Shown here: piece after piece, positions 5,014-9,608 of the stretch
How positions within the stretch are numbered: the stretch's first letter is position 1
How the letters are laid out: each line of letters opens with the position of its first letter
Source of the DNA: an uncultured Filifactor sp.
GTDB lineage: Bacteria > Bacillota > Clostridia > Peptostreptococcales > Filifactoraceae
NCBI GenBank assembly: GCA_947254385.1
Contig: CAMYCP010000012.1
Coordinates: forward strand, 1 to 14,651
Length of the DNA: 14,651 bases
Direction: 5' to 3'
Made by a program: the position numbers and the translations under genes
The notes under the pieces: generated by a model
What the model saw: the letters and a program-made list of their open reading frames with translations, nothing else
Told to the model about the DNA's origin: nothing
Databases searched by the model: none

Positions 5014-7434
5014 AAAAAATCTGAAGATTTATATAATCCACATTCAATCGAAAAAAAATGGCAAAAGCACTGGGAAGAAAACAAAACTTTCAAAGCTGAA
5101 ATCGACCTAGGCAAAAAGAAATTTTATGCACTTATAGAATTTCCTTATCCGTCGGGGGCAGGGCTTCATGTAGGACACATAAGAGCCTATACTTCGCTTG
5201 AAGTAATTTCACGCAAACGCCGACTTGAGGGATATAACGTACTATTTCCGATAGGGTGGGACGCTTTCGGCCTGCCGACCGAAAATTATGCCATTCAGAC
5301 GGGCGAACATCCGCGGGATGTAACCGACCGCAACATCAAAGTGTTCACCGAGCAGCTTAAAGCCGCCGGATATTCATTTGATTGGGATCGTACGGTGGAC
5401 ACGACCGATCCCGATTATTACAAATGGACACAATGGATTTTTATACAGATGTTCAAACGAGGTTTGGCGTACAAGGACAAGACGTATGTAAACTTTTGTC
5501 CGAACTGTAAGGTTGTACTTGCCAACGAAGAATCTCAGGACGGACACTGCGACAGGTGTCACAGCGAAGTTGTACAGATGGAAAAAGATGTCTGGTTCTT
5601 AAAAATCAGAAAGTACGCCGACAGACTGCTTGAGGGACTCAAAGAGCTGGACTTTTTGCCGAGAATAAAGACGGAACAGGAAAATTGGATCGGCAGAAGT
5701 TACGGAGCGGAAATTAATTTTAAATTAAAAGATGCGGACGATACATTGCTCGTATTTACGACGAGACCTGATACACTGTTCGGGGTAACGTTCATGGTAA
5801 TGGCTCCGGAACACCCGTATATCGAAAAATATAAAGAACGCATACAAAATTTGGACGAGATAAAAGCATATCAGAGTGCCGCTAAGAAAAAGACGGAATT
5901 TGAACGTGTACAACTTGCCAAAGACAAAACCGGAGTTGAAATAAAAGGGTTAAAGGCGATAAATCCCGTAAGCGGCAAGGAAATTCCGATTTGGATATCG
6001 GATTATGTAATGATGGGCTACGGCACGGGCGCTATAATGGCGGTGCCGGCACATGACGATCGCGACTACGCTTTTGCAAAAAAATTCAATATTCCGATGA
6101 TAGAAGTGATAAAAGGCGGCGACATATCTGAAAAAGCGTTCACCGACATAGAAGACGGGGTGATGATAAATTCCGGATTTTTAGACGGGAAACCTGTCAA
6201 GACCGCGATACAGGAAATGATCGCCTATGTTGAAAGTAAGAAAATCGGCAAAAAACAAACGAATTACAAGATGAAAGACTGGGCGTTCAACAGACAACGT
6301 TACTGGGGCGAACCCATCCCCATAATTCACTGCCCGAAATGCGGCATGGTGAGCGTACCGGAAGAGGAACTTCCTTTAAGACTTCCGGAAGTTAAAGAAT
6401 ACAAACCCACTGATACAGGTGAATCGCCTCTTGCCAAAATAGATTCGTGGGTAAATGTAAAATGTCCCGTATGCGGAGCGGACGCTAAGAGAGAAACCGA
6501 CACCATGCCGCAGTGGGCGGGATCGTCGTGGTACTTTTTAAGATACACAGATCCGAAAAATAATGATGCGTTGGCCGGCAAAGACGCTCTCGAATATTTC
6601 GGTCCCGTAGACTGGTACAACGGAGGAATGGAACACGTAAGCCGCCACTTGATATATTCCAGATTTTGGAATTTGTTTTTATACGACATAGGAGCGGTGC
6701 CGTTTGCCGAACCGTACCGCAAACGTACCGCACAAGGGCTTATCTTAGGCTCGGACGGTGAAAAAATGTCAAAATCCCGCGGCAACGTGATAAATCCCAA
6801 CGACATAATAGAAAACTACGGTGCGGACACGCTTAGAACATATATCATGTTTATCGGCGACTACGAACGCCCCGCCGTTTGGTCGGACAGCAGTGTAAAA
6901 GGGTGCAGAAGATTTTTGGATCGCATATGGAACTTGAATGAAATAATGACGGACGATAAAAATTATTCCGACAAACACACCGTTTTGATGAATAAGACGA
7001 TACAAAAAGTCTCTTCCGACTACGAAAATGTCAAATTCAACACGGCTATAGCCGCCATGATGAGCGCACTCAACGTATTTACCGATGACGGATATATTAC
7101 CCGAGGCGAATTTAAAGACTTAATAACTCTCCTCTACCCGATAGCGCCGCACATAACTTCCGAACTTTGGGAAAAAGCCGGATTTGAAAACTATCTTGAA
7201 AATGCGTCGTGGCCTACATTTGATGAAAGTAAAACGGTGGAAGACATAATAGAAATTCCGGTGCAGATAAACGGGAAAGTCAGAGGCAAGGTAAACGCAT
7301 CCTCAGATGCGAAAGAAGATGAAATATGGGCGGCGGCGGAACGGATAAAAAGCGTGCGCGACTTTATCGAAGGCAAGAAGATAATTAAAAAAATATACGT
7401 TCAAGGGAAAATATTAAACGTCGTTGTAAAATAA
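5011..7434 (+). CDS. leuS: Leucyl-tRNA synthetase
   Basis: Class I aminoacyl-tRNA synthetase that charges tRNA-Leu with leucine using ATP, in the cytoplasm. With the TTG start at 5011 the protein is 807 residues, the usual bacterial length. The signature HVGH lies at 53-56 and KMSKS at 585-589. The editing (CP1) domain, which hydrolyses mischarged tRNA, carries TTRPDT near 250-255 and the [12 protein letters not shown] segment. Cysteine pairs CPNC (163-166) and CDRC (180-183), and a second set at CPKC (441) and CPVC (485), are likely zinc sites. The C-terminus has the conserved INGKVRGKV segment of the tRNA-binding region. No T-box leader is visible. A hairpin starts nine bases after the stop, ahead of the sirtuin gene. 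Confidence 0.97.
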
Positions 7435-8280: not shown

Positions 8281-8324
8281 AAAATGCTGAATCCAACGTC
8301 TTGTTTTGTTGAATTCAGCATTTT
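8281..8324. terminator. Terminator hairpin shared by the converging sirtuin and peroxiredoxin transcripts
   Basis: Arms 8281-8297 and 8308-8324 pair over 17 positions with a single mismatch, around a 10-base loop. The core is AAAATGCTGAAT. On the minus strand the stem ends in a TTTTT run followed by more T-rich sequence, so it should stop leftward transcripts from the peroxiredoxin gene and element A. On the plus strand it ends TTTTGT and can serve the sirtuin gene. Confidence 0.75.
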
Positions 8325-8354
8325 GTATCTTAAGGTTTATCAGTCAACCGTTTT

Positions 8355-8490
8355 AAGTGAACTACACCCGAATCTAAAGATTCGGTGATTCTTGCTTCAT
8401 CCTCTGACTTACGTTTCGTAATCTATAAGAGATTACTCTTCCGTCTTACGTAAAGTTCACAAGCGTAGATTCGGGTAGTTCCTACCCTAC
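8355..8490 (-). ncRNA. Candidate omega-RNA-like structured RNA in element A
   Basis: Several nested helices can form. ACTTACGT (8407-8414) pairs with ACGTAAaGT (8448-8456, one bulge). GTAATCT/AGATTAC (8418-8436) forms a 7-base stem with a 5-base loop inside it. GGGTAG/CTACCC (8473-8487) forms a tight hairpin. The 3' hairpin is CACC-c-GAATC/GATTCGGTG (8365-8387). GTGAAC near the RNA 3' end (8357-8362) is complementary to GTTCAC at 8455-8460. In TnpB systems the guide lies directly beyond this end. Here that would be the bases just below 8355, beginning AAAACGGTTGACTGAT on the minus strand. The family name rests on resemblance and memory, not on a search. Confidence 0.4.
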
Positions 8491-8498
8491 AATAAGTA

Positions 8499-8523
8499 TA
8501 GAAAACTTAGGTTTAGTTTTCTA
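8499..8523. repeat. 9-base inverted repeat inside element A
   Basis: TAGAAAACT (8499-8507) and AGTTTTCTA (8515-8523) are perfect complements around a 7-base loop. The repeat lies between the putative promoter and the structured RNA, within the segment that element B lacks. Confidence 0.5.
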
Positions 8524-8530
8524 ATATGAT

Positions 8531-8559
8531 ATATTATACCGCAAAAAACTCTCTGTCAA
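8531..8559 (-). promoter_or_regulatory. Possible promoter at the left end of element A
   Basis: On the minus strand TTGACA (8559-8554) is followed by TAATAT at 17 bases (8536-8531) or by a perfect TATAAT at 15 bases (8538-8533). It would transcribe toward the structured part of element A. Element B lacks the corresponding segment. Confidence 0.4.
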
Positions 8560-8598
8560 TTCATCTCACGAACCTAAAGGTTCAAAGATTTCTTGACA
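8554..8598. repeat. Left-end hairpin of element A
   Basis: Three stems are stacked with internal loops: TGTCAA/TTGACA (8554-8559 with 8593-8598), ATCT/AGAT (8563-8566 with 8586-8589) and GAACC/GGTTC (8570-8574 with 8579-8583), closed by a TAAA loop. Element B forms the same fold with two compensatory base-pair changes. Confidence 0.65.
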
Positions 8599-8604
8599 CT
8601 ATCT

Positions 8605-9168
8605 TTAAAGTTCTCCTACAAGATCAATCCCCGGTGTCAAAACTTCATCTCCCGGTTCCCAGTTGGCGGGGCAAACTTTGTCACCGTGTTTGTGTACAAA
8701 TTGTGACGCTCTGACTTTTCTTAAAAGTTCGTGAGCATTTCTGCCTACTCCGGGAGCATTGATTTCATAAGCTACTACTTCCCTGTTCGGATTGATTATA
8801 AAACTTGCACGTAACGCTTGTCCTTCTTCGGGGATAAGCACATCGAGCATTTTTGACAAAACGAAATTTCTGTCACTTATCATTGAAAAGTCAACTTTTT
8901 TAATTCTGTCGGAGCGGTCTTTCCACGCCTTGTGTACAAATTCGGAATCCGTGGACACGGAATAGATGTTCGTGTGTTCTCTTCTGAAGTCTTCATACAG
9001 GTTTTGCAAATCTTCGAGTTCCGTCGGGCATACAAAAGTAAAATCTCCCGGATAAAAGAACAGTACACTCCATACGCCGTCCAAATCTTTTTCCGTAACT
9101 TGTTTAAATTCTTCGCCTACGAGAGCGGGAACTTTAAATTCATCAATTTTTTTACCGATTAAATTCAT
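8605..9168 (-). CDS. ahpC: AhpC-type 2-Cys peroxiredoxin
   Basis: Reduces hydrogen peroxide and organic peroxides in the cytoplasm. The 187-residue length equals that of classical AhpC. The peroxidatic cysteine is Cys47 in FTFVCPTEL and the resolving cysteine is Cys166 in GDKVCPANWEPG. The ATG at 9168 follows GAGGTG at good spacing. No ahpF reductase gene is adjacent, so the electron donor is unknown from this window. No convincing promoter stands out in the AT-rich 142 bases upstream. A perfect half of a PerR box (TTATAAT, plus strand near 9192-9198) is present without the second half, so PerR control is not supported. The gene lies between elements B and A, and its stop codon touches the end of element A. 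Read-through from the rnf operon is possible because no clear terminator follows rnfB. Confidence 0.95.
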   Translation of the reverse strand: MNLIGKKIDEFKVPALVGEEFKQVTEKDLDGVWSVLFFYPGDFTFVCPTELEDLQNLYEDFRREHTNIYSVSTDSEFVHKAWKDRSDRIKKVDFSMISDRNFVLSKMLDVLIPEEGQALRASFIINPNREVVAYEINAPGVGRNAHELLRKVRASQFVHKHGDKVCPANWEPGDEVLTPGIDLVGEL

Positions 9169-9310
9169 AATTTCACCTCATAATTATTTTTTTATAATGA
9201 TATCTTGTTTCAGTTATATATTTATCCCGTTTGAATTATTTTAAACATAATTTAAAAAATATTTTATACTAAAAGATATTTCTATCGGATGATAGTATGA
9301 ATTATCGTAA

Positions 9311-9440
9311 AAGTGAACTACACACGAAACTTTTAGTTAGGTGTTTCTTGATTCATCCTCTGACTTACGTTTCATAATCCATAAGATTACTCTGCTTACT
9401 TACGTAAAGTTCACAAGCGTAAGTAAAGGGTAGGTCCTAC
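9311..9440 (-). ncRNA. Candidate omega-RNA-like structured region in element B
   Basis: The TAATC/GATTA stem, the GGTAG/CCTACC-type hairpin at about 9430-9440, and the GTGAAC (9313-9318)/GTTCAC (9409-9414) complementarity are kept as in element A. A 9-base helix TTACTTACG/CGTAAGTAA around 9397-9426 is stronger here than in element A. It has no own promoter that I can see and could be carried on a transcript reading through from rnfB. Confidence 0.3.
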
Positions 9441-9452
9441 CATACTTTTATT

Positions 9453-9499
9453 GTATCAATTCATCTCACGAATCTAAAGATTCACAGATTTCTTGATAC
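9453..9499. repeat. Left-end hairpin of element B
   Basis: GTATCAA/TTGATAC (9453-9459 with 9493-9499), ATCT/AGAT (9463-9466 with 9486-9489) and GAATC/GATTC (9470-9474 with 9479-9483) stack around a TAAA loop. The fold is the same as in element A. Confidence 0.65.
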
Positions 9500-9608
9500 T
9501 ATTTTTTTAAACGGAAAATAAAAGATACAAGAAGGATCAAGTCAGAAAAATAAATTTATTTCCTTAAAAATTAAATTCAACCGGTAACAGAAAATATAGT
9601 TAATATTT

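Follow-up and report, generated by a model that had tools for sequence, protein, structure and literature searches.

Structured RNAs that occur without a nuclease gene are exemplified by HEARO and the orphan IscB omegaRNAs. Gene-free derivatives of IS605 are also known already, and the interest here lies in a class of them that keeps its omegaRNA, not just in the two copies, A and B, described below. The PATEs of Haloquadratum walsbyi are gene-free, IS605-derived elements with palindromes near their ends, some of which arose by core deletion and which are possibly mobilised (PMC3119063). A and B resemble PATEs in lacking genes, in their IS605 origin and in their near-terminal palindromes, but keep a whole omegaRNA scaffold, whereas PATEs are end-only or core-deleted and the available part of their description mentions no guide RNA; a non-exhaustive search of the literature returned no description of PATEs that keep a complete TnpB omegaRNA. 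Variants of the IStron BcISt1 in emetic Bacillus cereus, which according to the available part of the report have lost both ORFs (PMC4227781), are like A and B in being IS-derived and devoid of genes. IStrons carry a group I intron, whereas A and B match no Rfam intron family, group I included, and an IStron identity was rejected for these elements of only 248 and 194 nt.

Closer still are the IS200/IS605 elements with TnpB, from which A and B differ in having neither tnpA nor tnpB. ISDra2, as described in the available part of its report (PMC8612924), and an element on viral contig L132 share with A and B hairpin ends, an omegaRNA running into the right end (RE) and a target-adjacent motif (TAM) 5' of the element; the motif is TTTAA for A and B, in contrast to TTGAT for ISDra2. 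The available parts of two reports describe how TnpB, with the RNA of the right end and its flank, cuts the re-sealed donor site by the TAM, after which repair may restore the element (PMC8612924, PMC11870625). A and B have the DNA and RNA components for such a process and encode neither of its proteins.

The window (the whole stretch of DNA analysed, 14,651 nucleotides) contains genes for PFOR, LeuRS, a Sir2-type deacylase, an AhpC-like peroxiredoxin, RnfB and RnfC; its RnfB is 80% identical to a Filifactor alocis MAG protein, the other 79 among the matches listed reaching at most 59%, and the host is therefore probably related to Filifactor. A and B lie on either side of the peroxiredoxin gene, oriented as it and the Rnf genes are, with the following features.

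8357-8604 (248 nt), minus strand: element A, gene-free, left end (LE), spacer and omegaRNA scaffold/RE; bounded by its repeat with B, covariance matches and TTTAA/TTCAC
9313-9506 (194 nt), minus strand: element B, gene-free, LE almost abutting the omegaRNA scaffold/RE; bounded by its repeat with A and covariance matches
8357-8486, minus strand: predicted omegaRNA scaffold of A (models R1 and R2)
9313-9441, minus strand: predicted omegaRNA scaffold of B (models R1 and R2)
8570-8583, minus strand: LE hairpin of A, GAACC-TTTA-GGTTC (sequence and fold), with the layout of the LE of L132, L115, L139, L126 and L156
9470-9483, minus strand: LE hairpin of B, GAATC-TTTA-GATTC (sequence and fold)
8368-8385, minus strand: RE hairpin of A (inverted repeat and fold)
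9322-9344, minus strand: RE hairpin of B, unlike that of A in sequence with the hairpin kept (fold and sequence)
8605-9168, minus strand: AhpC-like peroxiredoxin gene between A and B (TIGR03137, E 7e-75, 250.9 bits, below the curated cut-off of 272)

The initial annotation had recognised two related elements in the same orientation, and a BLASTN search of the window with the A region bears this out (82% identity across 137 nt at E 6e-33, 90% across 51 nt at E 5e-15), with the bounds shifted to those given above. The segments of A and B are alike in order and orientation, and the repeat families D1, D3 and D8 of the window also pair them; in a MAFFT alignment the two are collinear end to end, A being 56 bases longer altogether, mostly between the LE and the core. 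The likeness stops no more than 2 nt from the element ends that relatives indicate, which leaves the flanks of A and B unrelated, and the TT following GTAGTTCAC (8355-8356 and 9311-9312) is assigned to the flank because relatives end in TTCAC followed by varying bases. In six frames, the longest run without a stop reaches 31 codons in A and 30 codons in B, and thus tnpA, tnpB and iscB are absent from both, as had been stated; an HMM made from TnpBs found no TnpB in the 1700 nt that precede either scaffold. With the nuclease and transposase genes gone, A and B could work only with proteins supplied elsewhere in the cell. Folding predicts the subterminal hairpins that had been described at both ends of each element, and a single compensatory change, from C-G to T-A, distinguishes the LE hairpin of A from that of B. 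Both minus-strand segments are copies, now diverged, of a single gene-free element, and their anatomy as listed is near certain.

Guide RNA scaffold, ends and promoter-like sites

The core of A and B was compared with two covariance models that contain no sequence from the window. Model R1 was made from 10 omegaRNAs, and because two of these (L126 and L130) lack tnpB by HMM, model R2 was built from 15 omegaRNAs, each of them preceded by tnpB sequence, which is partial or split in five cases (L090, L093, L123, L125 and L128). R1 matches A with E 1.7e-14 and B with E 5.5e-8, and R2 matches A with E 1.3e-17 and B with E 2.9e-10, these E-values being rough owing to short calibration; R1 has no other match in the window at E up to 10. 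In sequence and structure, the scaffold of A and B is a predicted omegaRNA of the TnpB type that runs to the RE, which agrees with the earlier proposals of a structured core and of a retained guide RNA part.

When A, B and the ten R1 sequences are aligned, a three-helix consensus is paired in 154 of its 156 cells, B and L126 breaking one pair each and A none, and 19 cells are altered on both sides. Neither value is equalled in 500 shuffles, and structures slid along the same alignment pair at most 53% of cells; these pairing statistics are support, not proof, because the structure was derived from these very sequences and rows that are related can exceed shuffles. Further pair types, a measure of covariation, are no better than in shuffles of these twelve sequences (314 of 500 reach the observed value).

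Rfam, which the initial annotation had suggested as a check, gives no match to A or B at gathering score, and the five matches that it gives for 8300-9560 at E up to 10 include no HEARO, guide RNA or intron family. A HEARO or IscB omegaRNA identity, compared by Rfam alone, was dropped on this basis; the scaffold is of the TnpB type by R1 and R2. The check is otherwise uninformative: at E up to 1, Rfam finds no guide RNA in nine loci that bear RNA of the A/B type, five of them adjoining tnpB, and its blank on A and B therefore means little. R1 and R2 detect RNA of this type at loci where Rfam finds none.

One of the weak Rfam matches is the Helicobacter pylori sRNA HPnc0580, at 8418-8499 of the minus strand in the scaffold of A (24.2 bits against a gathering score of 37, E 0.23). 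HPnc0580 and the scaffold have a GGAA hairpin, ACGC and GUGA in the same order, and HPnc0580 could be an omegaRNA too.

Viral contig L132 has the same left end as A and B, CAAGAAATC-hairpin-GATGAATTG, and there the LE is followed by tnpB and then by an omegaRNA/RE of the A/B kind. L132 is a full-length relative, with tnpB between such ends, of the sort that had been recommended as something to look for. A and B have hairpin ends homologous to those of a tnpB-bearing element and no genes within, and are probably non-autonomous IS200/IS605 elements, in keeping with the derivation first proposed. In the loci collected for this analysis, the LE motif CARGAA-hairpin-GATGAATTG occurs at seven distinct places (A, B, L115, L126, L132, L139 and L156), not all of them independent, since the LEs of L126 and L139 are alike. 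In all seven, TTTAW ends 9-11 nt upstream of the motif (TTTAA in six, TTTAT in L126); the per-source chances multiply to 10^-12.6 for this range, which was set post hoc, and to about 10^-10 if 7-13 nt is allowed. The TTTAA beside A and B is placed where the insertion site and TAM are expected, and is predicted to be both.

8605-8609, minus strand: predicted TTTAA target/TAM of A, its TAA being the stop codon of the peroxiredoxin gene
9507-9511, minus strand: predicted TTTAA target/TAM of B (LE motif search and sequence)
8337-8356, minus strand: predicted guide of A, 20 nt of flank after TTCAC, from TnpB biology as available in part (PMC8612924)
9293-9312, minus strand: predicted guide of B, 20 nt of flank
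8533-8559, minus strand: promoter-like TTGACA-15-TATAAT between the LE and the omegaRNA of A (12/12 consensus match)

The promoter-like site of A is equalled by none of 2000 shuffles when spacers of 15-19 are allowed, whereas with the usual spacers of 16-18 the best score in A is only 10/12, which 117 of 2000 shuffles equal. L139 has TTGAAA-17-TATAAT, equalled by 0/2000 shuffles (1/2000 for spacers of 16-18). No site beyond shuffles is present in the LE-to-omegaRNA interval of L126, L155 or L156, the 9/12 score of L181 (a copy without the LE motif) is not beyond shuffles either, and B has no room for a promoter between its LE and its omegaRNA. In a general scan, 8 promoter-like sites were counted and 4.5 +/- 2.2 expected. 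A promoter as a feature of the whole class was dropped, as it rises above shuffles in only two of the five LE-bearing elements scored (A and L139); since the other scored elements do not exceed chance and B lacks the space, a private promoter is considered for A and L139 only, in which it is plausible.

Relatives with and without tnpB

At the DNA level, A has partial matches in six of 393 genomes of the order, none of them full-length. The best (locus L084 of genome G226, E 5e-9) consists of a tnpB gene end and, after it, sequence resembling the core of A, and is the sole one of the six confirmed as a tnpB-linked omegaRNA; of the others, L086 has no omegaRNA layout in the part read, and L087 was rejected because it falls inside a long frame. 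Plasmid and phage collections contain no match to A, a core pattern is found in none of the 11 genomes of the nearest family, and a gapped pattern gave no matches, a result of little weight since this pattern mixed features and fits neither A nor B. An exact 18-mer search of viral contigs hit three places (L001, L002 and L003) with at most 21 nt in common with A or B, those in L002 and L003 lying within long frames, and all three were discarded as chance. Within the order, R1 matches 48 genomes out of 386, including G022 and G089 from the nearest family, with 11 first-look candidates scored per genome.

Pattern searches of viral contigs yielded 14 omegaRNA places, with tnpB upstream in 11 and none for L126 or L130; L131 has too little sequence for tnpB to be judged. 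Patterns based on the spacing of LE and core hit 11 + 5 places in viral contigs, 14 of which were dropped as chance, only L126 and L139 matching R1. A scan of 75 sources with R1 gave 51 matches, 50 of which were examined with an HMM of 13 TnpBs, L107 being left out as a duplicate of L153. Among the 32 matches preceded by 1000 nt or more of sequence, tnpB (in some cases truncated or split) is present in 21 and absent from 11, including A and B, a division that is not a frequency, as the sample was pooled from several searches. L139 has no tnpB in the 923 nt available upstream. An omegaRNA with a full LE motif and no tnpB is found in viral contigs L126 and L139 and in L156 of genome G069, and L155 of genome G046 has an omegaRNA without tnpB and a partial LE motif (ATGAATTG after the hairpin). 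The layout without a nuclease thus recurs in two viral contigs and two bacterial genomes besides A and B. Truncated or split tnpB genes adjoin the omegaRNA at several loci, such as L125, L150, L154 and L160.

Genomes G046, G055 and G069, which are rich in TnpB and contain omegaRNAs without a nuclease, have 8, 12 and 8 matches to PF07282 and 12, 20 and 8 matches to PF01797, respectively, so that proteins of both kinds are present there. R2 finds only 1, 1 and 2 omegaRNAs in them, with 150 first-look candidates scored in each, and most of their TnpBs are therefore expected to use RNAs outside R2. No TnpB adjoining RNA of the A/B type was found in the three genomes, which disfavours ready use in trans. 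PF07282 is unmatched in G001, the nearest MAG, and matched in three of the 11 genomes of its family.

Retention of the omegaRNA and competing explanations

A and B are probably PATE- or MITE-type derivatives of an IS200/IS605 element that keep the LE, a whole omegaRNA and the RE, and are served in trans by TnpA and TnpB. Loss of tnpA and tnpB would have left the two ends and the complete scaffold in place; TnpA from elsewhere would excise A or B and reinsert it 3' of TTTAA. The omegaRNA of A may be transcribed from a promoter of its own, and that of B perhaps by read-through from the co-oriented genes upstream, each taking as its guide the flank after TTCAC. TnpB from elsewhere would then cut the emptied site, consisting of TTTAA and this flank, and repair from the sister copy would put the element back. 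As the guide is specific to the flank of one copy, a copy without genes would need an omegaRNA of its own to be protected, and because each guide would address only its own copy, retention of the omegaRNA would be explained.

The main rival, compatible with much of the data though rather unlikely, is that internal deletions took tnpA and tnpB and that the omegaRNA, now functionless, has merely not yet decayed. Such deletions of the IS605 core are described as a source of PATEs in the available part of that report (PMC3119063), and the truncated or split tnpB genes next to omegaRNAs, the lack of room for a promoter in B and the lack of a cognate TnpB in G046, G055 and G069 all fit; A and B, being diverged, could be old inert remnants. 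Decay is less readily reconciled with an omegaRNA and two ends that are whole and paired in both diverged copies, with RE hairpins that are unlike in sequence yet both fold, or with a minimal layout seen again in viral contigs and other genomes.

It is far less probable that A and B have been co-opted as guides for a host role, for instance in the control of the peroxiredoxin or of some other gene by a TnpB-like or TldR-like protein, TldR being a descendant of TnpB. Each guide is simply the insertion flank, and no window site with four or fewer mismatches to either 16-nt guide follows TTTAW except its own flank, even though A and B stand on both sides of one gene and are co-oriented with it, and a phage TldR acting as an RNA-guided transcription factor is reported in the available part of one account (PMC13418256). 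An ordinary intergenic duplication with no link to a transposon, an alternative raised in the initial annotation, is scarcely credible: the presence of only two copies in 14.6 kb with no transposase would suit it, but independent TnpB-linked models match both A and B, TTTAA precedes each, and the similarity halts at the element ends.

A broader and more tentative proposal is that A and B belong to a recurrent class of gene-free IS605 elements, in phages and bacteria, selected to keep their own omegaRNA and sometimes their own promoter, as 'self-addressed' parasites of a TnpB gene drive. A shared TnpB acting in trans would restore a parasitic copy only if that copy brings its own RNA, because the guide encodes that copy's flank. 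Gene-free copies with ends and omegaRNA are a natural test of the model in which TnpB keeps the transposon in place; they predict that many addressed RNAs make use of one TnpB in trans, and they allow PATEs that have an omegaRNA to be compared by direct measurement with those that lack one.

Further omegaRNA loci

Several other loci bear omegaRNAs of note. L155 and L157 (the latter in genome G055) have the leader GTTCTTTGATAACTGGATATAT before the scaffold, with a near variant in L156 and no leader in A or B. The omegaRNA at 4233-4326 of L125 is also present in viral contigs L129 and L133, and the adjoining tnpB frame is split near the end of the zinc finger. Viral contig L130 contains two unlike omegaRNAs (1682-1773 and 5318-5408), neither with tnpB by HMM, the first being preceded by what appear to be the last codons of a tnpB gene. 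The viral record G395 (170,695 bases) has three omegaRNA matches (L139/L179, L181 and L183) with no adjoining tnpB by HMM, two of which have near-identical scaffolds and a promoter-like stretch in common. G395 has three partial PF07282 matches and no Y1 transposase; an identical short TnpB-like piece points inward from both of its ends, suggesting that these are inverted repeats, and a more complete TnpB gene may lie past the ends of the record.
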